From positions 1 to 26,392 of the IMG/VR virus record IMGVR_UViG_3300042868_007432: a stretch of 26,392 nt of DNA; one strand, written 5' to 3'. Origin of the DNA: a virus. The notes beneath the pieces are model-generated. The model worked only from the letters and a program-made list of their open reading frames with translations, had not been told where the DNA came from and made no database searches. Position numbers and translations under genes: made by a program. Positions within the stretch are counted from its first letter, which is position 1. Each line of letters begins with the position of its first letter. This document shows, piece after piece, positions 6,666 to 26,179 of this stretch.

Positions 6666-8924
6666 ATGAAAAATTTACTTTTAACTTTAACACTTGCCTT
6701 TTCTTTTATGTTAGGATATGGTCAATATGACTTATCCAAGAACGTGGAAAGACAAGTAATAGTGGTACCAAATCAAAAAATGGATGATTTAACCACTTCA
6801 TTTATTGAGGCGAATAACGCTGAGATAGTTGCTAAATTTGACCAACTTGGTTGGTATGTTGTGTTGTTACCTGAGAATATAACTCAGGATAAATTTATAT
6901 CAATCTGTAAGGATTTTAGTTTTATTAAGAATGTGTGGAAAGATGAGACAATGACAATGCAAAGACATTACATTCCTAATGATGTTCAATTTGCTACACA
7001 ATGGTTTCTAAGACAATCCAATGATAAAGACATTGATGCTGACGAGGCGTGGGATTTATTACCAAGTAATAATCCTTTTGTTAGTGTTGCAATGTTTGAC
7101 GGGGGATTAGACCTTACACATCCTGATTTAATTGGGAACACCGACAATCCATTTAATGCCGTTAATTTGACTAATTCAGTGCCTTATGTAAATGCGGAAG
7201 ATAAACACGGGACCGCATGTTCAGGTACTATCGCAGCTTTAACCAATAACGGTATTGGTGTTAGTAGTGTCGGTAACAATAAAGTAAAAGTTATGCCTGT
7301 GAATATTATGTCACAAGTATTTGCGGGAGGTAGTTTTAACACAACAAATGTGATTCAAATTGCTGGAGTCAACGCAGCAATGGCTAACCCAAACTGTGTT
7401 GCTATTGCAATGTCTTATGGTGGTAGCGGGGTTTCCTCAGCACTTGAGGCTGCGTTTTTATCCGCAAGAACAACCGCAAGAGGTGGTAAAGGTATGTGTG
7501 TTTTCGCATCTTCAGGTAATAATTTTTCAGGAACTGCAGCTCAATACCCCGCAAACTATACTAATGTTTGGGGAGTAGGGGCCACAACATCATCTGACGT
7601 TAGAGCAAGTTTCTCAAATTATGGTCCAATATGTGATATATCCGCACCTGGCTCAGGTATCGGTACAACAGATAGAATCGGTACCGCAGGATATAATACA
7701 ACAGACTATACGTCAATAAGTGGTACATCATTTTCTTGTCCTATAACGGCCGCAGCCGCAGCGGTTATATTCTATAAGAATTGGACTTTAACGGACGACG
7801 AAGTATTAAATATATTATCCCAAAGCTGTGAAAAAGTAGGAGGATATGTTTATTCAACCGCAAATGGTTATCCATACGGAACGAGAAGTAATGAATTAGG
7901 ATATGGTAGAATTAATCTTAAAAATGCGGTTAACTTAACACCAACACCAGGTGGAACTCCACCACCTCCACCACCAAGTCAACACAATTTTTATGTTCAA
8001 AACGTAACTGTTTCACCGTCATCACTTAATATGGGAGGGACAATTACCATAACTTGTAATCAATCAACTACTGACGGTACATTAAGTGTTGTTAATCCAA
8101 TCTTACAATATCGCTCATCAGTTAATACAATTTGGGGTGATAGTGACGATGTTATTATTGGTACTGACACCACTACTTTAGGAGGTGGAGTTTCTACGGG
8201 AGTAGAAAGTATAACATATGTAACACCGTTGTCTGTTGGTACAAGATACATTCTTATTAAAGCGAATTACAATAATGCAGTTGCGGAATCAAGTCCCTTT
8301 GATAATTCAGGTCAAGCGTCGTATGTTTTAGTAGACCCAAATGTTGCTTTAACTGACCTTGCAATATCATTTGATATACCAACGACATCAGTTGTTAATT
8401 TAACACCAACTCAGATTACATTTACTTATAGACCAAAAATTACAAATACAGGTTCAGCAGTTATTACAAGTTTTTCAATTGGAAGAACTTGGGTAAATTG
8501 TCCTGGAGGAGTAATTAATTGTGAATCATCATCTAATTGGTCAGGAACATTATTACCTGGGCAGTCAGTTTATTTACCTAATGGTATTAACAGCTCATGG
8601 TCAACTCAAGTTTGTTTCAGTCCAACAAGTTGTGCGATTCCTGCCGGTGGTACTAATACATTCAGAATAAGAATGTTATCCATTAATGGAGCTACAACCG
8701 ATATTAATACAACCAATAATGTTGCAACTGTAGTTGTTAATAGATTGGTAACTACGACTAACAATGATGTTGAGTTTGTAGAAGTTAGACAATTTAGTAA
8801 GTTGTATGAAAAACCTGTAAGATATAATAGTATTGACGAGGCGATTTTAGAGAAAGGATTAAATATAATTCACATTCATTATGATGATGGAACCGTTGAG
8901 ATAAGGAAAATCTCAAGAGACTAA
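6666..8924 (+). CDS. Secreted subtilisin-like serine protease (S8) with C-terminal beta domains
   Basis: A 752-residue exported protease. A signal peptide (1-19, ending near GYGQ) is followed by a propeptide-like region (about 20-100), then the S8 catalytic domain with Asp145 (FDGGLD), His181 (DKHGTACSG), the oxyanion Asn285 (SSGNN) and Ser355 (SGTSFSCP). All catalytic residues are present, so it should be active. After the domain comes a Pro-rich linker (about 428-440) and two beta-sandwich segments resembling CARDB-type adhesion domains, each with a pair of Cys. The last 40 residues (GLNIIHIHYDDGTVEIRK near the end) look like the final strands of a Bacteroidota secretion-system (T9SS) sorting domain, but the match is weak. 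It could be secreted by the host or be a virion-attached depolymerase. A strong terminator follows. Confidence 0.9.
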   Translation: MKNLLLTLTLAFSFMLGYGQYDLSKNVERQVIVVPNQKMDDLTTSFIEANNAEIVAKFDQLGWYVVLLPENITQDKFISICKDFSFIKNVWKDETMTMQRHYIPNDVQFATQWFLRQSNDKDIDADEAWDLLPSNNPFVSVAMFDGGLDLTHPDLIGNTDNPFNAVNLTNSVPYVNAEDKHGTACSGTIAALTNNGIGVSSVGNNKVKVMPVNIMSQVFAGGSFNTTNVIQIAGVNAAMANPNCVAIAMSYGGSGVSSALEAAFLSARTTARGGKGMCVFASSGNNFSGTAAQYPANYTNVWGVGATTSSDVRASFSNYGPICDISAPGSGIGTTDRIGTAGYNTTDYTSISGTSFSCPITAAAAAVIFYKNWTLTDDEVLNILSQSCEKVGGYVYSTANGYPYGTRSNELGYGRINLKNAVNLTPTPGGTPPPPPPSQHNFYVQNVTVSPSSLNMGGTITITCNQSTTDGTLSVVNPILQYRSSVNTIWGDSDDVIIGTDTTTLGGGVSTGVESITYVTPLSVGTRYILIKANYNNAVAESSPFDNSGQASYVLVDPNVALTDLAISFDIPTTSVVNLTPTQITFTYRPKITNTGSAVITSFSIGRTWVNCPGGVINCESSSNWSGTLLPGQSVYLPNGINSSWSTQVCFSPTSCAIPAGGTNTFRIRMLSINGATTDINTTNNVATVVVNRLVTTTNNDVEFVEVRQFSKLYEKPVRYNSIDEAILEKGLNIIHIHYDDGTVEIRKISRD

Positions 8925-9801: not shown

Positions 9802-10824
9802 ATGATATATAAACTTGAATATATTTGGTTAGATGGATACACTCCTGAGCCAAACCTTAGAAGTAAAACTAAAGTAATTAATTTTACAAAAGAAGATATT
9901 ACAATATCTGACTTACCTATTTGGAACTTTGACGGTTCATCAACAAAACAAGCTGAAGGGGTCGACTCAGACTGTCTTTTGAAACCTGTTAAAATGGTTA
10001 AAGACCCCCAAAGAAAGAATGGATATCTTGTATTGTGCGAAGTTTTAAATGTTGATGAAACTCCTCACTCATCAAATATGAGGTCAAAAATTACAGATGA
10101 CTCAAATCTTTGGCTCGGGTTTGAACAGGAGTTCTTTATCTACAAAGATGGATTACCACTTGGGCATAATGGTATGACACCAAAACCACAAGGAGAATAC
10201 TATTGTGGTATTGGTTCAGATAATATTTCAGGAAGAGATATTATTGAACACCACCTTGACCTTTGCTTGGCCTCAGGACTTAACATGACAGGAATAAACG
10301 CTGAAGTTGCCCTCGGACAATGGGAATTCCAGGTTATGGGGAAAGGAGCTCTTGATGCTTGTGACCAACTAACACTTGCAAGATATATCTTAAATAGACT
10401 ATCTGAATCATATAAGGTAACGATTGAATATCACCCAAAACCTCTTGGAAATACAGATTGGAATGGTTCGGGAATGCACACAAATTTCTCAACCAAACAA
10501 ATGAGAGAAGAAGGTGGAAAGGAATTATTTGATGAAATCTTCCGTGTATTCAAAACAAATCACAACAAACATATTTTAGTTTACGGTTCAGATAATGAAC
10601 AAAGACTAACAGGTAAACATGAAACCCAATCGATTGATAAATTCTCTTGGGGTGTAAGTGACAGAGGAGCTTCAATTCGTATTCCACAAACAACGGTTAA
10701 AAATGGATGGAGAGGTTATTTAGAAGATAGGAGACCAGCATCAAATGCTTGTCCTTATATGATTACAAAACAGATTTCTGAATCACTAAAGCAATCTCAA
10801 CAAAATATATTAACTCTTCAATAA
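9802..10824 (+). CDS. glnII: Glutamine synthetase, type II (eukaryote-like)
   Basis: Makes glutamine from glutamate, ammonia and ATP in the cytoplasm. The 340-residue length fits GSII (about 340-370), not the bacterial GlnA (about 470) or GSIII (about 700). Family motifs run in order: LPIWNFDGSSTKQA (38-51), GFEQE with metal ligands Glu108 and Glu110, INAEVALGQWEFQV with Glu168 and Glu175, DWNGSGMHTNFS with His226, NEQRLTGKHE with Arg268, FSWGVSDRGASIR with Arg288 and Arg293, and GYLEDRRPASN with Glu308. No expected catalytic residue is missing, so the enzyme should be active. It is in an operon with small genes on both sides (2-base gap before, TAATG overlap after). A phage-borne GSII is uncommon and is probably an acquired metabolic gene. 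Confidence 0.96.
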   Translation: MIYKLEYIWLDGYTPEPNLRSKTKVINFTKEDITISDLPIWNFDGSSTKQAEGVDSDCLLKPVKMVKDPQRKNGYLVLCEVLNVDETPHSSNMRSKITDDSNLWLGFEQEFFIYKDGLPLGHNGMTPKPQGEYYCGIGSDNISGRDIIEHHLDLCLASGLNMTGINAEVALGQWEFQVMGKGALDACDQLTLARYILNRLSESYKVTIEYHPKPLGNTDWNGSGMHTNFSTKQMREEGGKELFDEIFRVFKTNHNKHILVYGSDNEQRLTGKHETQSIDKFSWGVSDRGASIRIPQTTVKNGWRGYLEDRRPASNACPYMITKQISESLKQSQQNILTLQ

Positions 10825-11108
10825 TGAAACCCGAAGAAATTTATTTCCTTAATTATGTGAAGACCAAGGTACTCCCAAAGCATGGGTTAACAGAGAATGA
10901 TATATCATTTTCAAAGAATGATGAGTACTTCACAATGCAATATCTTATTCAAGGTAGACGTATTGAAGATATAATGGAGTGGTATAATAAAGCTGAAAAG
11001 ATTTATAATGAGATATCGACAATCTGTTACATCACAACAAAAAAGAAACTTGATAATATTATAGTTGAATCAGGAACCAAAACAGAAAATCTTTTAAATC
11101 TTATATGA
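10824..11108 (+). CDS. Small protein of unknown function, 94 aa
   Basis: Starts in a TAATG overlap with glutamine synthetase and ends in an ATGA overlap with the next gene, so all three are likely co-translated. The product (MKPEEIYFLNYVKTKVLPKHGL) is mixed helical, with the middle QYLIQGRRIEDIMEWYNKAEKIYNEI. No catalytic motif is seen. The overlaps suggest a possible link to glutamine synthetase, but no function can be assigned. Confidence 0.6.
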   Translation: MKPEEIYFLNYVKTKVLPKHGLTENDISFSKNDEYFTMQYLIQGRRIEDIMEWYNKAEKIYNEISTICYITTKKKLDNIIVESGTKTENLLNLI

Positions 11109-13066: not shown

Positions 13067-13525
13067 TTATTTACTAAAGTATAAATCTGCTTCACATTGT
13101 CTACGTTCAACCAAACCTTTAAGAACCTTACCTCCCGCTTTTGTCCACCTCATAAATTCATCCCTTATGGTCGGGTCATTTGGATTTTTATTAACCTTTT
13201 TCAAAAGAGTACTACTCTTTAGATTATAAGGACCCAAATTAAAAGCGAAACTAACCAAAGCGTCAAATTGATTTTGATTAATGTCATCACGACAAAACGA
13301 ATCAACGTGTTGCTCAAGATTCTGCAATGAGTTAGACAGTAATTCGGTCGCTCTTTGTTCGGTTATTATCGTATCTTTCAAAGACACTTTTTTACCATTT
13401 TCATATAGAGTATTTCCATAACCAATAGTTGGAACACCCGCTGAACAAAGGTAAGGTTTTAATTTTAGACCCTCAAATTTTTTTATCAAGTCTAAACCTT
13501 TTTTACTAATTTTTGTAATTTTCAT
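13067..13525 (-). CDS. Endolysin, GH24 lysozyme
   Basis: Cleaves the glycan strand of peptidoglycan to release progeny. The 152-residue length is typical for GH24. The catalytic Glu18 (KKFEGLKLKPY), Cys27 and Thr33 (PTIGYGNT) fit the E-8aa-(D/C)-5aa-T pattern, with Cys in place of Asp; that variant is known in active phage lysozymes. The central helical part (QFDALVSFAFNLG) and the C-terminal VERRQCEADLY match the family. No signal peptide or SAR segment is seen, so a holin or other exporter would be needed. It lies directly downstream of the tRNA-like array. Confidence 0.93.
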   Translation of the reverse strand: MKITKISKKGLDLIKKFEGLKLKPYLCSAGVPTIGYGNTLYENGKKVSLKDTIITEQRATELLSNSLQNLEQHVDSFCRDDINQNQFDALVSFAFNLGPYNLKSSTLLKKVNKNPNDPTIRDEFMRWTKAGGKVLKGLVERRQCEADLYFSK

Positions 13526-13570: not shown

Positions 13571-13705
13571 TAGTCAGGACAGGATTCGAACCTGTACTCA
13601 AAACAATCATCTAATATGCCTATTAGAGATACGTTTATAGATGCCTCCTCAACCTCGCCTAATTGTTTTGATAGTTGTTAGCGTCTACCATTCCGCCACC
13701 TGACT
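13571..13705 (-). ncRNA. tRNA-like element 7 (135 nt, long insert)
   Basis: The acceptor stem AGTCAGG/CCTGACT is perfect, the D-arm is leucine-like (GCGGAATGGTAGACGC), and the T-arm is canonical (ACAGG TTCGAAT CCTGT). No 7-base anticodon loop is found: the D-arm is followed by CTAA, 15 bases and TTAG. A 10-bp stem (TCAAAACAAT with ATTGTTTTGA) then encloses about 50 bases including the CTAATA-GGCA-TATTAG hairpin. The body is about 50 nt longer than a leucine tRNA. No CCA is encoded. Endolysin starts 46 bases after its 3' end. Confidence 0.6.
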
Positions 13706-13709
13706 ATGT

Positions 13710-13892
13710 TTATTTCACTTCTTTAAATAGTGAAAAAAATTCTTCTTTTGTCCTCACCCATATCCAACCATTTGGATTATTATATAAAGTTTGATAAATG
13801 ATTGAATCAACCCATACACCATTTATTTTTACTTTTGTTTCTGCAAAAATTCTGTAGAGTTTACCCTTATATTCATATACCTTTTCTTCCAT
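13710..13892 (-). CDS. Small protein of unknown function, 60 aa
   Basis: Lies between two tRNA-like elements: its ATG is 17 bases after the 3' end of one and its stop is 5 bases before the next. The product (MEEKVYEYKGKLYRIFAETK) is a small beta-rich protein with Tyr and Trp residues (NGWIWVRTKEEF near the end). It has the look of a short SH3-like domain, but no family is certain. It would be released as a separate mRNA if the flanking RNAs are processed. Confidence 0.6.
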   Translation of the reverse strand: MEEKVYEYKGKLYRIFAETKVKINGVWVDSIIYQTLYNNPNGWIWVRTKEEFFSLFKEVK

Positions 13893-13908
13893 AACTTTTA
13901 TTTATTTG

Positions 13909-13980
13909 TAGTCAGGACAGGATTCGAACCTGTACCTCAAGAGTTACTGACGTGAGTGCTATCAATTACACCACCTGACT
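13909..13980 (-). ncRNA. tRNA-like element 6 (72 nt)
   Basis: This is the only array member of normal tRNA length. Acceptor AGTCAGG/CCTGACT, D-stem GTGT/GCAC and T-arm ACAGG TTCGAAT CCTGT are good, but a regular anticodon arm would be CACGT/TCTTG with two mismatches and without U33 (loop CAGTAAC). The better pairing CTCA/TGAG leaves a 13-base loop. It could be a degenerate tRNA. Confidence 0.6.
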
Positions 13981-14231
13981 ATGTTATCGCCCAATCATTT
14001 CTGACTGTCCCAAATACCGGATTTCAGCGGCAACTCATTTCTACTGTACAATAGAGTGAGAGGTTAGGGCTTGTGTGTTAACTTGCTGTTGTTACTGGTA
14101 CACTAACCAACCGACTTAGGTTCAAGTATCGGCTCAGGTCCCTGTGGCGGTAAAACCACTTCTCATCATACGGGAGCATACTAGGTGGGAACTACCCTCT
14201 TTTGTGTATTTCCGAATACGGAAACCTCGTG
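13981..14231 (-). ncRNA. Structured non-coding RNA unit of about 250 nt within the array
   Basis: No plausible gene lies here. The unit is richer in GC than its surroundings and full of local inverted repeats. On the minus strand these include TTTCCG-TATT-CGGAAA, GTGG-8-CCAC, CCGATACTT-GAACCT-AAGTCGG (with a bulge) and GGTTAG...CTAACC. It fills exactly the space between tRNA-like elements 5 and 6. No tmRNA tag frame was found. It may be a processed regulatory or structural RNA. The strand is inferred from the neighbours. Confidence 0.5.
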
Positions 14232-14327
14232 TAGCCAGGACAGGACTTGAACCTGTGATATGGTACGCTAACATTTGAATCATCATAGTTAGTTCGCCAT
14301 TGACGCAACCAATTCCGTCACCTGACT
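14232..14327 (-). ncRNA. tRNA-like element 5 (96 nt)
   Basis: Acceptor AGTCAGG/CCTGGCT (one T-G pair), D-stem TGACG/CGTCA, T-arm ACAGG TTCAAGT CCTGT. The anticodon position holds an extended arm: ATGG/CCAT, a 4x4 internal loop, then CTAAC/GTTAG closing a 15-base loop. No normal anticodon is seen. Confidence 0.6.
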
Positions 14328-14333
14328 ATTTTA

Positions 14334-14615
14334 TTATCTGCCTTCATATTGCCATAAAACAGCATTACAATAAGCATGTACAGCACCTTCAGTCATATTT
14401 GTTTTATGACAATGTTGAAGATGAACTGGATTTATTAAAAACCCCTCTGGAAACAATCTCCAATTGATTGGTTTATTCGTTATTCTTTCAGGAGCGACCT
14501 CATCTAATGACTCCCCACAATACATACACTTATTGCTCTGTGCTTCTATATATTGTAACCTAACTTCTCTCCTTTGTTTAGGTAAAAGTTTTGTATAATC
14601 TGTTGGTAGTTCCAT
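14334..14615 (-). CDS. Endonuclease VII-like HNH protein, 93 aa
   Basis: The frame continues upstream to 14702 through a tRNA-like element, but ATG 14615 (MELPTDYTKLLPKQR) is the likely start: it is 15 bases after that element's 3' end. Zinc site residues are Cys30 and Cys33 (CMYC) and the HLQHCHKT (65-72) and YCN (82-84) blocks, matching the recombination endonuclease VII pattern CxxC...HxxHCHxT...CN. Family members resolve branched DNA or act as nicking HNH enzymes. It is short, so its role may be limited to nicking. The stop is seven bases before the next tRNA-like element. Confidence 0.75.
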   Translation of the reverse strand: MELPTDYTKLLPKQRREVRLQYIEAQSNKCMYCGESLDEVAPERITNKPINWRLFPEGFLINPVHLQHCHKTNMTEGAVHAYCNAVLWQYEGR

Positions 14616-14629
14616 AATTTTATATTTTG

Positions 14630-14727
14630 CAGTCAGGACAGGACTTGAACCTGTAATGCAGAGAGTAGTCCTCAACGGGTAACGCCTTAACATACCATAC
14701 ATTTGACACCAATTCCGCCACCTGACT
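14630..14727 (-). ncRNA. tRNA-like element 4 (98 nt)
   Basis: Acceptor AGTCAGG/CCTGACT and T-arm ACAGG TTCAAGT CCTGT are perfect; the D-stem (GGC/GTC) is weak. The middle, enclosed by AATG/CATT, holds small hairpins (GGTA/TACC and GAG-GACTA-CTC) rather than one anticodon arm. Confidence 0.6.
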
Positions 14728-14736
14728 ATTTATTTT

Positions 14737-14928
14737 TTACTTTTCAATATATGCCCAAATTGTAATTTCTCTATCATCACAAGATTCATCATATGATGGC
14801 AGATACCATTCATTATTTTTGTAATGACACACTTCAAACTTCGGTGTGTTTTTTAATGATGATTGAATCAAAACCCAACTATCATCTTTTGGGTATGTTT
14901 TGTCTTTTTTGAAATTTATCCACTCCAT
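14737..14928 (-). CDS. DUF551-like small protein, 63 aa
   Basis: Begins MEWINFKKDKTYPKDDSWVL and ends in REITIWAYIEK, similar in length and layout to DUF551 proteins, which start with WI-x-V and have a WxxIP-type end; these are common in phages and have no known function. Two Cys are present. It sits between tRNA-like elements 3 and 4: ATG 17 bases after one, stop 10 bases before the other. Confidence 0.6.
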   Translation of the reverse strand: MEWINFKKDKTYPKDDSWVLIQSSLKNTPKFEVCHYKNNEWYLPSYDESCDDREITIWAYIEK

Positions 14929-14944
14929 ATCTTTTATTATTTAG

Positions 14945-15057
14945 TATCTGAGACAGGATTCGAACCTGTATGAAATCATCTTTGGGTACATAAATGTATT
15001 TCTACATTCAAGTTGACTTCTCACTTTGTTAGCGTCTACCAATTCCGCCACCTGGAT
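14945..15057 (-). ncRNA. tRNA-like element 3 (113 nt)
   Basis: The T-arm (ACAGG TTCGAAT CCTGT) and a leucine-like D-arm (GCGGAATTGGTAGACGC) are good, but the acceptor ATCCAGG/CTCAGAT has two mismatches. The middle holds CAAAGT/ACTTG (one bulged A, 9-base loop) and AATGTA-GAAA-TACATT, where a long variable arm would lie. Confidence 0.55.
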
Positions 15058-15064
15058 ATTTTAT

Positions 15065-15289
15065 TTACTTAACAAATATTTCTGTAAGTGGTAAAGATAC
15101 AAATTTGTAGTTATAAACCTCATTTGGTAATGTTCCATCAATACACTCAACAATATAATATGGCATCAATCCAGAAGAACTTTTACCCACTATTTTACCA
15201 TCAAAGGTTGAATCACCTATTCTAACACTAACTTCAACACCATCGGTCAATTCCGGCGTATTCACAATTTCTTCAAATGTTCTATTCAT
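15065..15289 (-). CDS. Small protein of unknown function, 74 aa
   Basis: Its ATG is 17 bases after tRNA-like element 2 and its stop eight bases before element 3. The product (MNRTFEEIVNTPELTDGVEV) is beta-rich (VSVRIGDSTFDGKIVGKSS), possibly a small SH3 or OB-like domain. Not recognised. Confidence 0.6.
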   Translation of the reverse strand: MNRTFEEIVNTPELTDGVEVSVRIGDSTFDGKIVGKSSSGLMPYYIVECIDGTLPNEVYNYKFVSLPLTEIFVK

Positions 15290-15305
15290 ATCATTTAATT
15301 TTTAG

Positions 15306-15372
15306 TAGTCAAGGCAGGAATCGAACCCGCGCTCTCCCTTATCGGGTGCGTATGCCAACACGCCACTTGACT
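15306..15372 (-). ncRNA. tRNA-like element 2 (67 nt, truncated anticodon arm)
   Basis: Acceptor AGTCAAG/CTTGACT, D-stem GCGT/ACGC and T-arm GCGGG TTCGATT CCTGC are well formed. The anticodon arm is cut to CCC-GATAA-GGG (three pairs, five-base loop), so it cannot decode in the usual way. Confidence 0.6.
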
Positions 15373-15377
15373 ATGTA

Positions 15378-15450
15378 ATACCGATGCCTTTACTTTCACG
15401 AGGACTTGCGTGTCTTTTTCAATATTACTATTTTAGGACCCCATCGGTAT
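15378..15450 (-). ncRNA. Structured RNA unit between tRNA-like elements 1 and 2
   Basis: The ends AATACCGATG and CATCGGTATT form a perfect 10-bp stem that encloses CACG/CGTG and other pairs. On the plus strand the stem runs into six T residues and would look like a terminator, so a plus-strand transcript is possible. If transcribed with its neighbours it is a minus-strand unit released between two processed elements. Confidence 0.5.
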
Positions 15451-15456
15451 TTTTTG

Positions 15457-15537
15457 TAGTCAGGACAGGAACTGATACTGAGTCAACCTCATACCTCATC
15501 AAGTATATTATAGAGATATCAATTCCGTCACCTGACT
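15457..15537 (-). ncRNA. tRNA-like element 1 (81 nt), T-arm lost
   Basis: The acceptor AGTCAGG/CCTGACT is perfect and the D-arm start matches the others (TGACGGAATTG), but the TTCRA T-loop is missing. GGAATTGATA and TATCAGTTCC pair over ten positions with one G-T, giving a long hairpin. First element downstream of the promoter at 15564. Confidence 0.5.
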
Positions 15538-15563: not shown

Positions 15564-15595
15564 CAAATATACGGAGAATCTTTTATTCTACCAAA
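15564..15595 (-). promoter_or_regulatory. Bacteroidota-type promoter driving the tRNA-like array
   Basis: On the minus strand TTTG (15595-15592), 20 bases, then TATATTTG (15571-15564). Transcription would start near 15557, about 20 bases before tRNA-like element 1. The box and its flank match the promoters at 15904 and 16462. Confidence 0.65.
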
Positions 15596-15903: not shown

Positions 15904-15933
15904 CAAATATACGACAAAATAAGTTATTACAAA
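15904..15933 (-). promoter_or_regulatory. Bacteroidota-type promoter for the 15888 gene
   Basis: On the minus strand TTTG (15933-15930), 18 bases, TATATTTG (15911-15904). The predicted start lies about 8 bases before the ATG. Confidence 0.6.
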
Positions 15934-21946: not shown

Positions 21947-22297
21947 ATGAACCTACAAGAAACCATTAAAAGAGTATTGAGAGAGGAAGCAAGTCCAATT
22001 TTTAGAAGAATAATTAGGAGAGCCGACCTTGAAAAAATAAATAAGTTTTTCAGAGATGGTCTTGGGGTAATGACAACAAGATATTTTCAAAACAAACATA
22101 ACTGGCACAATATGGACCTTAATAGGTTTAAGCAAGGAATCGTATCATATGTTATTGTGGACATTTGTATAAAATATAGTGATATATGTTATGGAGATGG
22201 AGATTACTATAACCAAGTGTTTGATTTCATATGGAATAACTACTCAGATGAAATGGAAGAAAGGTGGAATGAGATTACTTCAGGTAAGTTTGATTAA
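21947..22297 (+). CDS. Protein with MNLQETIKRVLREE N-terminus, unknown function, 116 aa
   Basis: Starts MNLQETIKRVLREEASPIFR with an L-R-E site; an Ala follows at +2. The body is helical and basic near the start (RRIIRRADLEKINKFFRDG), then aromatic and acidic (CYGDGDYYNQVFDFIWNNY). Its stop overlaps the stop of the minus-strand 22294 gene (TTAA), so the two units converge tail to tail. Confidence 0.65.
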   Translation: MNLQETIKRVLREEASPIFRRIIRRADLEKINKFFRDGLGVMTTRYFQNKHNWHNMDLNRFKQGIVSYVIVDICIKYSDICYGDGDYYNQVFDFIWNNYSDEMEERWNEITSGKFD

Positions 22298-22611
22298 TCA
22301 GCACCGTAATCTGAGTAAGCGTAACCAGTCTTAAAACCAAGTTTATTCTCAACCCAATTTTCAATTACATTCAAAGATGTATTTAAATCCAAAGAAAAGA
22401 ATCCCGTAATTTCGGTTAGAATACTTGAACTTATAAAACAATCGTCATCTTTTTTATGATAGGCGATTATTGCAAATTCACCACGACTCCAAGATAGCTT
22501 TGAGGTATAAAAATAATAATCCCCTTCATCTTCAATCATATGTAAGTCCTGATTGTCAAGATACTTAAAGATAATTTTATTAATTTGTGATTCATTTATA
22601 ATGTATTTCAT
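22294..22611 (-). CDS. Paralog of the MKYLITESQ family, 105 aa
   Basis: Starts MKYIINESQINKIIFKYLDN and shares the family body (LDNQDL..., a YYFYTSK-type strand, then EITGFFSLDLNTSLNVIENW and VENKL). It is the last gene of a three-gene unit (23321 to 22294), four bases after the 22616 gene. Function unknown. The body differs strongly from sister copies at the C-terminus, so it is diverging. Confidence 0.7.
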   Translation of the reverse strand: MKYIINESQINKIIFKYLDNQDLHMIEDEGDYYFYTSKLSWSRGEFAIIAYHKKDDDCFISSSILTEITGFFSLDLNTSLNVIENWVENKLGFKTGYAYSDYGAD

Positions 22612-22615
22612 ATCT

Positions 22616-22927
22616 TTAAAAGTAATATACGATTATTTCTGATTGAGCGTCAACCGCTCCGTAACTAGTTCCAGTTTTACTCTCAACCCATTTAGCAATA
22701 GCGGAAAGGGAATCTACATTCTCCAAAGAAAAGAAAGAAGCAATCTCAGTCATTAATTTTCTATCAATCGTACACCAATAACTATTGAATTTAACTTGAG
22801 CATATTCATCTTTCTCTGAGTTAAGGAAGTAACCGTTTATTCCATATTCCATATAAACAAAGTCCTGATTGTCAAGATACTTGGATACTATTTTATTAAT
22901 TTGGGTTTCGTTTATAATGTATTTCAT
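22616..22927 (-). CDS. Paralog of the MKYLITESQ family, 103 aa
   Basis: Starts MKYIINETQINKIVSKYLDN and continues with the family pattern (LDNQDFVYMEY, YFLNSEKDEYAQVKF, EIASFFSLENVDSLSAIAKW). The family consensus is an N-terminal peptide, a helix, a beta hairpin (YFLNSE-DEYAQIRY), and a C-terminal helix with RWVEN. It starts one base after the 22929 gene stop. Function unknown. Confidence 0.7.
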   Translation of the reverse strand: MKYIINETQINKIVSKYLDNQDFVYMEYGINGYFLNSEKDEYAQVKFNSYWCTIDRKLMTEIASFFSLENVDSLSAIAKWVESKTGTSYGAVDAQSEIIVYYF

Positions 22928-22928
22928 A

Positions 22929-23321
22929 TTAAAACATATATCCTGTTCTTACATCCAGTACTTTATAGTCGGGGAATAAAACATTAAAAGCGTCCGATAC
23001 TAGATACTTACCATGGACCATCCAAAAAGGGTGGGGAAATCTCTTCTCAAGCAAATTATCATGGTCTCTACTAAAATATAATTCTCCTCTTGTCCCCTCA
23101 TCATCTTCATCATAGAAATGAAACTTTGCAATCAATTTCTTATCAGAATCATATAGATAAAGGTCCTCTCCCTCAAAATCATAAAAATCAAATTGATTAA
23201 CAATATAAGAGATAACTTTATCCTTTATCTTATTATACTCTTCTTCATATTCAAAATCTCTCCAAGTTCTTTCAATCTCGGAGATAAGTTTAAGTTGTGA
23301 TTCAGTGATAAGGTATTTCAT
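22929..23321 (-). CDS. Acidic protein with MKYLITESQ N-terminus, unknown function, 130 aa
   Basis: Starts MKYLITESQLKLISEIERTW, but the body has no similarity to its neighbours: a helix rich in Glu and Lys (YEEEYNKIKDKVISYIV), then acidic beta segments (FDFYDFEGEDLYLYDSDKKL). It is another case of the same N-terminal peptide on a different protein. It is the first gene of the unit that includes 22616 and 22294, with TATTTAT six bases before the ATG. Confidence 0.7.
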   Translation of the reverse strand: MKYLITESQLKLISEIERTWRDFEYEEEYNKIKDKVISYIVNQFDFYDFEGEDLYLYDSDKKLIAKFHFYDEDDEGTRGELYFSRDHDNLLEKRFPHPFWMVHGKYLVSDAFNVLFPDYKVLDVRTGYMF

Positions 23322-23327
23322 ATGATT

Positions 23328-23334
23328 ATAAATA
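23328..23334 (-). promoter_or_regulatory. TATTTAT element, six bases before the 23321 start
   Basis: TATTTAT on the minus strand ends six bases before the ATG of the first gene in the three-gene unit; the two internal genes lack it. Confidence 0.45.
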
Positions 23335-23344
23335 TAAGGTATAT

Positions 23345-23662
23345 CTATCTAACGTGTACTTCCCCAACTCTCGTATCCAATTTATTTCCAACCCATCTAC
23401 CAATAATATATTTAGAATCATTAAAGTCCAATGAAAAGAATTTGGCAATCTCATCAACCAATTCAAAATTTATCCAACACTCACCATTCTTATAGAAATT
23501 AATTAATGAATCTGATATCAAGTCTCCACTTGAATTAAGGAAGTAAGTTATATTGCTAACCCCAAAAGACGTTTTAGCTGATTTTCTTAAAATAAAGTCC
23601 TGATTATCCAAATACTTAAATACTACTTTATCAATCTGTGATTCTTTAATTAGGTATTTCAT
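23345..23662 (-). CDS. Paralog of the MKYLITESQ family, 105 aa
   Basis: Starts MKYLIKESQIDKVVFKYLDN and follows the family pattern (NQDFILRKSAK, ITYFLNSSGDLISDS, EIAKFFSLDFNDSKYIIGRW). The N-terminus has I-K-E before Ser8. A separate unit with its own TATTTAT. Function unknown. Confidence 0.7.
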   Translation of the reverse strand: MKYLIKESQIDKVVFKYLDNQDFILRKSAKTSFGVSNITYFLNSSGDLISDSLINFYKNGECWINFELVDEIAKFFSLDFNDSKYIIGRWVGNKLDTRVGEVHVR

Positions 23663-23668
23663 ATAATT

Positions 23669-23675
23669 ATAAATA
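23669..23675 (-). promoter_or_regulatory. TATTTAT element, six bases before the 23662 start
   Basis: TATTTAT on the minus strand ends six bases before the ATG. Confidence 0.45.
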
Positions 23676-23689
23676 TTAGTAGGGTATCC

Positions 23690-24007
23690 TCAATTTTTGG
23701 GTCGTAACAGATATCTTAACCTTTCGGTGTTTTTCACCTCCATTTGTAGGGTATTCTCAACCCATCTACCTATAACTAATTGAGAATTAAACTCTTGTAT
23801 AGAAAAGAAGGTAGAAATCTCTTCAACCAACTTTTTATTTATGTAACACCAACCACTATCTTCATCGTATCTAATTTGTGCATATTCATCTCCCTCAGAA
23901 TTAACAAAGTATATTTTATTATCTTTTTCAATCCGAATAAAGTCTTGGTTATCCAAGTACTTAAAGATTACTTTATCAAATTGAGATTCTGTTATGAGAT
24001 ATTTCAT
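23690..24007 (-). CDS. Paralog of the MKYLITESQ family, 105 aa
   Basis: The frame is open upstream to 24070, but the family N-terminus MKYLITESQFDKVIFKYLDN begins at ATG 24007. The body follows the family pattern (DNQDFIRIEKDNKIYFVNSE, DEYAQIRYDE, EEISTFFSIQEFNSQLVIGR, WVENTLQM). The extra 21 upstream codons lie in the promoter region and may include a remnant of another copy. Function unknown. Confidence 0.7.
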   Translation of the reverse strand: MKYLITESQFDKVIFKYLDNQDFIRIEKDNKIYFVNSEGDEYAQIRYDEDSGWCYINKKLVEEISTFFSIQEFNSQLVIGRWVENTLQMEVKNTERLRYLLRPKN

Positions 24008-24012
24008 ATGAT

Positions 24013-24019
24013 ATAAATA
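24013..24019 (-). promoter_or_regulatory. TATTTAT element, five bases before the 24007 start
   Basis: TATTTAT on the minus strand ends five bases before the ATG and directly adjoins the box of a Bacteroidota-type promoter. Confidence 0.45.
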
Positions 24020-24049
24020 CAAAGATAGAACAAAATAACCACTTAACAA
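24020..24049 (-). promoter_or_regulatory. Bacteroidota-type promoter for the 24007 gene
   Basis: On the minus strand TTG (24049-24047), 19 bases, TATCTTTG (24027-24020). The predicted start would fall inside the adjoining TATTTAT, giving a very short leader. Confidence 0.5.
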
Positions 24050-24080
24050 TTCGGTAATCTCAACAACCATTCACCTTTGA

Positions 24081-24087
24081 TATTTAT
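24081..24087 (+). promoter_or_regulatory. TATTTAT element, four bases before the 24092 start
   Basis: TATTTAT on the plus strand, four bases before the glycosyltransferase ATG, in the divergent region next to the 24007 promoter. Confidence 0.45.
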
Positions 24088-24091
24088 TATT

Positions 24092-24796
24092 ATGGAACTA
24101 TCAAGATTTCTTACAATAGTTATTCCGTGCAAGAATGAATCCAAAATCATAGACACGACATTATCGTTATTAAACTTTCAAACAGATATAGAAAGGGTTA
24201 CGGTAATTGTTGCTGATTCATCAGATGATGGAACCAAAGAAATGCTTGACTCAAGACGAAATGATAAGTTTAATTTAAACATTATCAAAGGAGGATTGCC
24301 AGGTAAGGCAAGAAACAGGGGAGCAAAACGTGTAACAACGCCATATATTTTATTTATGGATGCTGATATGTTTATCCTTGACCCAAATATTTTAAGGGAT
24401 TGTATCAGAATGATGAGAAGGAAGAACCTTGATTTATTAACAACAAAGGTTAGAACCACAAATGGAAAATACAATTATGTATTTAGGTCATTTGATATCA
24501 TACAGAAATTAATCAAACCATTCACACCATTTTGTTTGGGCGGGTTTATGTTATTTAACACGGAAACATTTATGAACTTAGGTGGATTTGATGAAGACGC
24601 ACAAGTTGCTGAGGATTACCTACTATCAAAAAAAGTATTCAGTGATAAGTTTAAAATACTAAACAGAACCATATTCACACCACCAAGAAGATTTGAGAAT
24701 AAAGGACTTTGGTATATGACAAAACTAATGGTTAAATCCTATTTCAACAGGAACAATAAGAAGTTCTTTTCAAATCATAATACATATTGGAAATGA
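24092..24796 (+). CDS. Family 2 glycosyltransferase
   Basis: Transfers a sugar from a nucleotide sugar, probably onto a lipid or surface glycan. ATG 24092 (MELSRFLTIVIPCKNESK) is preferred to the upstream in-frame ATG 24077, given the TATTTAT element. The 234-residue protein has a GT-A fold start (TIVIPCKNE), nucleotide-binding VTVIVADSSDDGT (36-48), the DxD metal motif as DAD (90-92) in YILFMDADMF, a GGFMLFNTETF segment and the likely catalytic base region AEDYLL (Glu174-Asp175). No transmembrane segment is evident. It forms an ATGA-coupled pair with the LpxH-like phosphatase, which suggests a role in modifying a lipid-linked surface molecule. Confidence 0.9.
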   Translation: MELSRFLTIVIPCKNESKIIDTTLSLLNFQTDIERVTVIVADSSDDGTKEMLDSRRNDKFNLNIIKGGLPGKARNRGAKRVTTPYILFMDADMFILDPNILRDCIRMMRRKNLDLLTTKVRTTNGKYNYVFRSFDIIQKLIKPFTPFCLGGFMLFNTETFMNLGGFDEDAQVAEDYLLSKKVFSDKFKILNRTIFTPPRRFENKGLWYMTKLMVKSYFNRNNKKFFSNHNTYWK

Positions 24797-25503
24797 GATA
24801 TAGGACAATTATAATGAGTGATTTACATTTGGGTGCAAGACAATCACAGATAGATAAGATATTAAAGTTTTTAGAAGAGAACCAATCAGATAAACTAATT
24901 CTTAACGGAGATATAATTGATGGTTGGGCATTAAAGAATGGTGGAAAGTGGAAGAAGGAACATACAAAGATATTCAGGAAGTTTATGAAGAGGTCAGAGA
25001 AGGGAACAGAGGTTATATACATAAGAGGAAACCACGATGACTTTCTAAAACCATTTATTCCTTTCACATTAAACAATATTAGAATCGTAAGAAAGTATGT
25101 TCACTATGGTATTGATGGAAGAACGTATTTTTGTTTTCACGGGGATGTATTGGATTTTGTGGTTATGAAAGCAAGATGGCTTGCGGTAATTGGTGGATGG
25201 TCGTATGATTTTGTCATTAAGTTAAACACGATATACAACTACATAAGAAAGAAGTTTAATCTACCATATCATTCACTGGCAAATACGATAAAACAATCTG
25301 TAAAAGGAGCGATTAACTTTGTATCTGATTTTGAGGAAAACGCAAAGGGTCTAACAAAACAGAAGGGATATGATGTTGCTGTGTGTGGTCATATTCATCA
25401 TCCGAAATTAGAAAGTGATTATATGAATTCAGGTGACTTTTGTGAGAACTCCACTTGTCTTGTGGAGAATTATAATGGGGAGTGGAAAATAGTGGTGGTG
25501 TAA
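24793..25503 (+). CDS. LpxH-like metallophosphoesterase (UDP-2,3-diacylglucosamine diphosphatase family)
   Basis: ATG 24793 overlaps the glycosyltransferase stop as ATGA; an upstream TTG (24787) is less likely. The 236-residue protein has all calcineurin-type motifs: SDLHLG (Asp10, His12), NGDIIDGW (Asp40), RGNHDD (Asn80, His81), FHGDVLD (His116) and CGHIHHP (His200, His202). The FHGD and LGG-free insert are typical of LpxH and related UDP-diacylglucosamine hydrolases, which release UMP in lipid A synthesis. The actual substrate may be another UDP- or lipid-linked pyrophosphate. With the glycosyltransferase it forms a likely envelope-modifying cassette within the array of small paralogs. Confidence 0.85.
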   Translation: MRYRTIIMSDLHLGARQSQIDKILKFLEENQSDKLILNGDIIDGWALKNGGKWKKEHTKIFRKFMKRSEKGTEVIYIRGNHDDFLKPFIPFTLNNIRIVRKYVHYGIDGRTYFCFHGDVLDFVVMKARWLAVIGGWSYDFVIKLNTIYNYIRKKFNLPYHSLANTIKQSVKGAINFVSDFEENAKGLTKQKGYDVAVCGHIHHPKLESDYMNSGDFCENSTCLVENYNGEWKIVVV

Positions 25504-25529
25504 GATATTAGTTAGGTATTCTCAACACG

Positions 25530-25835
25530 TTAGTCAATTGGAAATTGTGTCCATTCGATGTTTGTGACCTTCATTTGTAAGGTATTCTCAACCCATCTAC
25601 CTATAACTTGTTTAGAGTCAGATTTTTCTATAGAAAAGAAAGATGAAATTTCCTTAATAAAATTATAATAAATTACACACCATCCATCTTTATCATATCT
25701 AATTTGAGCATATTTATCTTCCTCAGAATTAAGAAAGTATATACTATCATCTTTTTCAATTTGAATAAAGTCCTGACTATCCAAGTACTTAAAGATAACA
25801 TTATAAATTTGTGATTCTGTGATTAGGTATTTCAT
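25530..25835 (-). CDS. Paralog of the MKYLITESQ family, 101 aa
   Basis: Starts MKYLITESQIYNVIFKYLDS and follows the family (QDFIQIEKDDSIYFLNSEED, YAQIRYDKDGWCVIYY, FIKEISSFFSIEKSDSKQVI, GRWVENTLQMKV). It is most similar to the 25877 and 26193 copies. A variant of the TATTTAT element (TATCTAT) lies four bases before the ATG. Function unknown. Confidence 0.7.
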   Translation of the reverse strand: MKYLITESQIYNVIFKYLDSQDFIQIEKDDSIYFLNSEEDKYAQIRYDKDGWCVIYYNFIKEISSFFSIEKSDSKQVIGRWVENTLQMKVTNIEWTQFPID

Positions 25836-25839
25836 ATGG

Positions 25840-25846
25840 ATAGATA
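25840..25846 (-). promoter_or_regulatory. TATCTAT variant, four bases before the 25835 start
   Basis: One-base variant of the TATTTAT element at the usual distance from the ATG. Confidence 0.35.
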
Positions 25847-25876
25847 TGTTAGTTAGGTATTCTCAACTTAACTGAG

Positions 25877-26179
25877 TCAATGAATCTCATTCCTGATGGT
25901 GTTTATGACTCTCATTTGCAAAGTATTCTCAACCCATCTACTGATAACTTCTTTAGAATCAGAATCTTCAATAGAAAAGAAAATAGATATTTCGTTAATT
26001 AATTTATAATAAATTCCACACCAACCACCCTGTTTATGAAATCTAATTTGAGCGTATTTATCTCCCTCAGAATTAAGAAAGTATATACTATCATTTTTTT
26101 CAATTTGAATAAAATCCTGATTATCCAAGTACTTAAAGATTACTTTATCAATCTGAGATTCGGTTATTAGGTATTTCAT
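25877..26179 (-). CDS. Paralog of the MKYLITESQ family, 100 aa
   Basis: Starts MKYLITESQIDKVIFKYLDN and shares nearly the whole body with the 25530 copy (QDFIQIEKNDSIYFLNSEGD, KYAQIRFHKQGGWCGIYYK, NEISIFFSIEDSDSKEVISR, WVENTLQMRV). Divergence is highest at the C-terminus, as if the end has been exchanged. Function unknown. Confidence 0.7.
   Translation of the reverse strand: MKYLITESQIDKVIFKYLDNQDFIQIEKNDSIYFLNSEGDKYAQIRFHKQGGWCGIYYKLINEISIFFSIEDSDSKEVISRWVENTLQMRVINTIRNEIH

Follow-up and report, generated by a model that had tools for sequence, protein, structure and literature searches.

Phage tRNA-like elements that may carry exchangeable structured RNAs in place of the anticodon arm

The array and its seven elements

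The window analysed here is a 26,392-base virus fragment from IMG/VR (record IMGVR_UViG_3300042868_007432). An array on its minus strand, running from position 15537 to 13571, contains seven copies of a repeat (E1 to E7) with the common acceptor halves AGTCAGG and CCTGACTA, set among short genes and structured RNAs. The initial annotation had described seven tRNA-like RNAs here, and all seven repeats were located on the minus strand. The tRNA signature of acceptor, D-arm and T-arm is kept by six of them, whereas E1 lacks a T-loop and forms a rod rather than a cloverleaf. Related repeats, termed tRNA-like elements (TLEs) below, were found in further viral contigs (L-numbers denote individual loci or contigs) and, judged from sequence, apparently make up a large and undescribed family.

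Element coordinates are counted from the first acceptor base to base 73, all on the minus strand. E1 (15537-15457) retains the acceptor AGTCAGG/CCTGACTA and folds as a single long rod of the 8-base-pair (bp) acceptor and an 11-bp helix (folding z -4.2); instead of forming a T-arm, the T-arm strand pairs with the D-arm strand in a helix. The rod may represent a second form of the element. E2 (15372-15306) is a TLE of 67 nucleotides (nt) with a compensated acceptor (AGTCAAG/CTTGACT) and a 3-bp mini anticodon arm that is not decoding. E3 (15057-14945, 113 nt) has two acceptor mismatches; its insert and that of E4 (14727-14630, 98 nt), both called payloads hereafter, recur elsewhere. E5 (14327-14232, 96 nt) has a cloverleaf-like fold with an extended payload arm (z -2.6), and E7 (13705-13571, 135 nt) contains a long payload helix (fold z -2.5). 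E6 (13980-13909, 72 nt) is the only element of the array called by ARAGORN, as tRNA-Tyr(GTA), and has no canonical anticodon arm. Cloverleaf-like folds with an 8-bp acceptor stem were obtained for E2, E5, E6 and E7. The combination of acceptor stem, TTCRA T-loop and D-arm is present in E2 to E7, apart from the acceptor mismatches of E3, and is not found in E1. The Rfam tRNA model scores E6 (47.8 bits), E7 (42.4 bits) and E2 (39.7 bits) above its gathering score and E4 (28.3 bits) and E3 (24.9 bits) just under the 29-bit cut-off, with no match to E1 or E5; at gathering score, the scan of the window gave tRNA matches only. A canonical 5-bp/7-nt anticodon arm with U33 occurs in none of the seven.

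The spaces between the elements are filled by two structured RNAs and four small open reading frames (ORFs), all on the minus strand. An 84-nt RNA between E1 and E2 (15373..15456), identified by a terminal-helix scan and folding, has a 10-bp terminal helix, a GUAA-capped hairpin and a CACG/CGUG hairpin. A relative in the 281-kb phage L223 likewise stands immediately 5' of a TLE, and its GUAA hairpin shows a compensatory U-A to C-G change. The 251-nt RNA between E5 and E6 (13981..14231) belongs to no Rfam family; its 5' core recurs in RNAs located after a TLE in L021, L061, L089, L098 and L100, and the alignment of this core contains compensatory pairs. The distance from base 73 to the ATG is 16 nt after E2 (a 74-residue ORF, 15065..15289, no Pfam match), 16 nt after E3 (63 residues, 14737..14928, no Pfam match), 14 nt after E4 (a 93-residue endonuclease VII-like ORF, 14334..14615, PF02945 with E=3e-4, under the curated cut-off) and 16 nt after E6 (a 60-residue DUF1653-like ORF, 13710..13892, PF07866 at its cut-off). 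The array is followed by a 152-residue endolysin of the phage lysozyme type (13067..13525, minus strand, PF00959, E=4e-43), whose ATG lies 45 nt past E7. The stop codons precede the first acceptor base of the next element by 7, 9, 6 and 4 nt. The spacing of 15-17, 46 and 5-10 nt in the initial annotation is thus reproduced as 14-16, 45 and 4-9 nt, the gap being a counting convention.

The promoter proposed ahead of the array corresponds to a Bacteroidota-type site (TTG-N20-TATATTTG, which we take to be the consensus of this phylum) at 15564..15594 on the minus strand, 26 bases upstream of E1. The same regular-expression scan placed a second site at 15904-15932, ahead of a 101-residue gene. Loose matches to the consensus number 13 in the window against 5.3 expected, and as real promoters these sites are suggestive only. 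Elsewhere in the window, several paralogous ORFs of about 100 residues beginning MKYLITESQ or MKYIINESQ occupy 22294-26179 on the minus strand, and the plus strand encodes a phage-borne subtilase (6666-8924, PF00082) and a glutamine synthetase (9802-10824, PF00120).

A conserved scaffold without a decoding arm

The family was collected by searching IMG/VR viral contigs with two exact patterns, one of 20 bases from the 5' side and one of 24 bases from the 3' side. The locus set consists of the matches listed by both scans, at least about 200 loci, and all family counts given here refer to these loci. A paired-half-site finder applied to 214 records located at least 352 elements, at least 336 of which are distinct, and none in 1.88 Mb of sequence simulated at equal length from the dinucleotide composition of the loci; chance occurrence is thus excluded.

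The acceptor stem UAGUCAGG...CCUGACUAC and the TTCRA T-loop are near-invariant, and each position of the acceptor and the T-stem forms a pair in 96-100% of TLEs, rare compensated variants such as that in E2 included. U-1 is present in 88%, A73 in 92% and a following C (C74) in 96% of TLEs, which results in an 8-bp stem. C74 is the only part of the CCA end that is encoded, both by TLEs (96%) and by the ordinary tRNAs of the same loci (89%), so the two classes have the same 3' end signal. At L012 4590 (oriented minus), the UAG of UAGUCAGG with which a TLE begins can double as stop codon for the ORF upstream.

The canonical 5-bp/7-nt anticodon arm with U33 was observed in one of the 336 unique TLEs. 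ARAGORN calls scatter across many isotypes and include impossible anticodons. An ordinary tRNA array is ruled out by the 335 TLEs that have no canonical anticodon arm; on this sequence evidence, TLEs are not decoding tRNAs. Their recognition as tRNAs by Rfam and ARAGORN in some cases, and their position amid real tRNAs, would suit decaying or intron-bearing phage tRNA genes with insertions in the anticodon arm. However, decay does not agree with a single acceptor across 336 TLEs, with the conservation of payloads between genomes or with a scaffold paired at 96-100%. Were the insert removed as an intron, a single acceptor identity would be combined with many different anticodons, and a common splice boundary was not seen in the alignments inspected, though no formal test was applied. 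Such an origin is very improbable.

Like transfer-messenger RNA (tmRNA), a TLE has an acceptor and a T-arm with a long insert replacing the anticodon arm. Unlike tmRNA, TLEs keep the D-arm, have U3:A70 instead of the G3:U70 identity pair of alanyl-tRNA synthetase, and have no Rfam tmRNA match. Pair 3:70 is U-A in 321, U-G in 11 and C-G in 4 of the 336 TLEs, the alanine pair G3:U70 being found in none. The tmRNA model matched no TLE in the window or in 16 loci, though it did match L181 5724-6218. The tmRNA assignment is ruled out by these covariance-model and 3:70 tests. The L181 match (plus strand, RF00023, 68.5 bits) is a tmRNA on a phage contig; the array that contains it also includes TLEs and about 20 tRNAs.

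Compared with the at least about 200 viral loci, a search of 85,000 bacterial and archaeal genomes (257 Gb) with a near-identical version of the 3' pattern gave only 10 stretches, about half of which come from Bacteroidota bins, and the hosts of the family are probably Bacteroidota bacteria. When 50,697 phage records were queried with a TLE, none of the records among the best-covered hits matched both scaffold halves; for two dense arrays, the best isolate hits among those inspected fall at tRNA genes or within a coding sequence. In the isolated Flavobacterium phage immuto (MW353175, L221), an 86-nt 'tRNA-Cys' at 8247-8332, uncalled by ARAGORN, has the acceptor AATCGGT/ACCGATT and may be a TLE with another scaffold; stem-closed RNAs separate neighbouring tRNAs in the same array. 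No protein family near TLEs occurs in more than 19 of the 214 loci, so that no common partner protein was found and the carriers appear diverse. The same limit applies to the tyrosine integrase expected beside an integron-type (attC) cassette array, with the reservation that the loci span a few kb and their proteins were not annotated one by one.

Payload structure and recurrence

The structured payload stands where the anticodon arm should be, giving TLE lengths of 67-191 nt (median 106). The payloads fall into 256 clusters, 200 of which are singletons. Covariation within the payload is observed in some families: three double-change compensatory pairs lie in the longest payload helix of the L015 family, six in the payload of the L039 family, and the L041 family has one compensatory pair. 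The minimum free energy of the payloads is lower than that of shuffled sequences (mean z -0.52). At gathering score, an Rfam scan of 16 loci (132 kb) returned tRNAs and one tmRNA only, leaving the payloads and the RNAs in the gaps between elements unmatched to any family, GOLLD and ROOL included.

Payloads recur at 90-100% identity across contigs with unrelated flanks, those of E3 and E4 among them. In most payload families the members are about 75-100% alike over the element, with unrelated 400-nt flanks on both sides. For the pairs L086/L124, L026/L071, L113/L115 and L155/L160, which are loci of several kb, blastn detects homology in the TLE plus some tens of further bases and nowhere else. 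The E3 payload is also present in L012, L088, L228, L229, L230 and L231, each time with different scaffold bases. The L228 copy (about 10923-11050, minus strand) has a long insertion in the D-loop, and the D-arm may also be open to inserts. The E4 payload is identical in L225, where the scaffold bases differ; the scan with an E4 word gave four hits, three of which are coincidences in coding sequence, leaving L225 as the sole TLE. An exact-word scan with the E7 payload gave no match. The proteins encoded downstream are unrelated in most close payload pairs. A general role of the TLE as a cis-regulator of the next gene is ruled out, the same TLE standing before unrelated proteins in most pairs.

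Comparison of 25 close pairs showed that 2.7% of payload sites diverge, compared with 5.7% of scaffold sites (P 3e-4) and 10% in random scaffold pairs. The scaffold is the most conserved part across the family, yet the more mosaic part within payload families. This faster divergence of the scaffold in close pairs suggests that payloads are exchanged through recombination in the scaffold. The reassortment of payload and flanks, a scaffold of about 50 nt that is near-identical and more mosaic than the payload, and the small, variable genes of the arrays also fit a TLE that is mainly a recombination site in DNA (attC-like or resembling a tRNA attachment site), with an RNA form of little matter. 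Against such cassettes, conservation lies with the payload within the element and not with the genes between elements. In addition, the compensatory changes are of the RNA type, the orientation is consistent with the genes (ORF starts near TLEs are 44% sense and 10% antisense, against 21% at random), and the limit of 19 of 214 loci for any protein family leaves no sign of a shared recombinase. We consider a role mainly at the DNA level distinctly unlikely. TLEs could instead be selfish RNA modules that copy themselves between phages, for example by template switching or reverse transcription of the processed RNA, with no benefit to the carrier. Blocks of homology the size of an element in otherwise unrelated loci, and the two TLEs with the same payload in L087, point in this direction. 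However, no reverse transcriptase or recombinase is generally linked to TLEs (again, no protein family in more than 19 of 214 loci), and the payload diversity exceeds that expected of a spreading selfish element, making this explanation quite improbable.

Spacing, predicted processing and meaning

The initial annotation had proposed comparing the spacing in related phages, and across the family a peak at 13-18 nt from element to ATG is indeed observed. Where an ORF begins on the same strand 8-69 nt downstream of a unique TLE, the distance is 13-18 nt in 66 of 148 cases; the corresponding counts are 18 of 93 for the ordinary tRNAs of these loci (P 5e-5) and 137 of 938 for gene-gene pairs (P 2e-15). 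No gene lies within 70 nt on either side of 135 of the 336 unique TLEs (40%). Strong terminal helices are present in 31% of the ORF-free gaps between tRNA or TLE elements versus 6% in shuffled sequences, whereas gaps containing ORFs are near background (10% versus 5%). The terminal helices of the ORF-free gaps start close to the predicted cut sites, at a distance of a few bases, and the 84-nt RNA of the window is of this stem-closed type.

Two further RNAs recur in the loci. One is a family of about 220 nt (CAATGAGTAAGAG...TAATCTC) located mostly directly after a TLE (L181 12117-12336, L017 5206-5429, L038 3110-3326, L083 2803-3020, L142 4194-4413 and others), with no Rfam match in the loci scanned. 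The other (GTGTTGTTCCCTTGAGAAAGGAAT...ACAACACAGAGGACTTCTCATCCTC) is situated between tRNA or TLE elements (L095 4678-4786, oriented minus; L050 4578-4668 and L181 11820-11915, both plus).

In mitochondrial tRNA punctuation and the t-elements of plant mitochondria, tRNAs or tRNA-like structures stand between genes, and cuts by RNase P and RNase Z free the mRNAs. Like these, TLEs are intergenic, on the same strand and closely spaced (4-9 nt upstream and 14-16 nt downstream in the window). Unlike them, TLEs are non-decoding, contain diverse conserved payloads, appear to move between genomes and are often gene-less, and their cleavage is predicted. The array had been read as punctuation of this kind, and its geometry holds; pure punctuation, however, fails to explain covarying, conserved inserts or gene-less TLEs. 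If TLEs were only RNase P and RNase Z cut signals and the insert a neutral filler, the excess of 66 of 148 starts at 13-18 nt over tRNAs and gene pairs, the terminal helices of the gap RNAs and the short stop-to-TLE distances would be accounted for. The conservation of payloads with compensatory changes across unrelated contexts would not, nor would the 135 of 336 TLEs without a gene within 70 nt, and ordinary tRNAs would be equally serviceable as cut signals. A minimal leader of 10-20 nt can also arise from compaction, as gene-gene distances show a weaker bump there. Punctuation as the sole role is unlikely. Excision by RNase P and RNase Z nevertheless fits the spacing peak, the terminal helices of the gap RNAs and the C74 end, and release of mRNAs and noncoding RNAs by such punctuation is plausible, probably as a by-product of a system of exchangeable tRNA-scaffolded RNAs.

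The reading that we favour, at somewhat better than even odds, is that TLEs are RNAs in their own right, each a tRNA-mimic carrier with an exchangeable payload, and that the RNase P and RNase Z of the host cut them out. It is preferred because the inserts covary in some families, stay 90-100% identical across contexts and often have no gene as neighbour. The acceptor stem, D-arm and T-arm, which RNase P and RNase Z would recognise, as probably would the CCA-adding enzyme, are almost invariant, and one of hundreds of structured RNA payloads takes the place of the anticodon arm. Host tRNA-processing enzymes would most likely excise the TLE from a polycistronic transcript as a stable, end-protected RNA, and the same cuts would free the neighbouring mRNAs, with their short A-rich leaders, and the stem-closed noncoding RNAs. 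The payloads would pass between phages like cassettes, the simplest route being homologous recombination in the common scaffold.

Several observations weigh against this reading. The loci were gathered by scaffold patterns, so the invariance is partly ascertained and elements with other acceptors were missed. The loss of the T-arm in E1 and the damaged acceptor of E3 indicate that not all elements of the window look processable. The largest payload family (family 1, seven aligned sequences) has no double compensations, the folding signal of the payloads is modest (the mean z above compares with -0.34 for the antisense strand), and the excess of the closing helix over shuffles is small (5.9 versus 5.3). 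The faster divergence of the scaffold could reflect variation at loop positions instead of recombination.

The elements share some features with known systems. The TMERs of the virus MHV68 are viral precursors of tRNA-like RNAs and microRNAs, with hairpins 3' of the tRNA-like part. TLE arrays likewise consist of viral non-decoding tRNA-like units, each with a variable RNA, but the TLE payload lies within the cloverleaf and the viruses are unrelated. In the engineered tRNA scaffold, a recombinant RNA is set in the anticodon arm of a tRNA for processing and stability; TLE payloads take the same position, whereas the TLE version appears natural and diversified. Phage tRNA operons include the T4 tRNAs, with dimeric precursors, and the phage C4 and M3 RNAs are also RNase P substrates (PMC11143913). 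These operons resemble TLE arrays in that polycistronic transcripts, including some phage RNAs other than tRNAs, are cut by host RNase P; they differ in that the TLE scaffold is common to hundreds of exchangeable inserts, a situation for which no known case was found. No published description of TLEs was found among open-licence papers in PubMed Central, where a preprint or subscription paper could be missed.

The diversity and turnover of the payloads and their location in phage tRNA arrays suggest that they are arms-race RNAs, i.e. decoys or inhibitors of host factors, including defences that read tRNAs. A fuller picture, to which we give slightly less than an even chance, is that large Bacteroidota phages possess a natural tRNA-scaffold platform, a shared tRNA mimic recognised by the RNase P, the RNase Z and the CCA enzyme of the host, with the anticodon arm as a socket for hundreds of exchangeable structured arms-race RNAs and with co-release of mRNAs and new noncoding RNA families. 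If TLEs are as proposed, hundreds of phage 'tRNAs' that are either called by gene finders or dismissed by them as odd would form a separate RNA class, which would be the natural equivalent of the engineered tRNA scaffold and comprise a large evolved library of payloads. Many unstudied structured RNAs, both payloads and stem-closed gap RNAs, would become available for function screens. The phages would have a new viral route to make, protect and exchange small RNAs, and a punctuation-like step would be added to phage gene expression.

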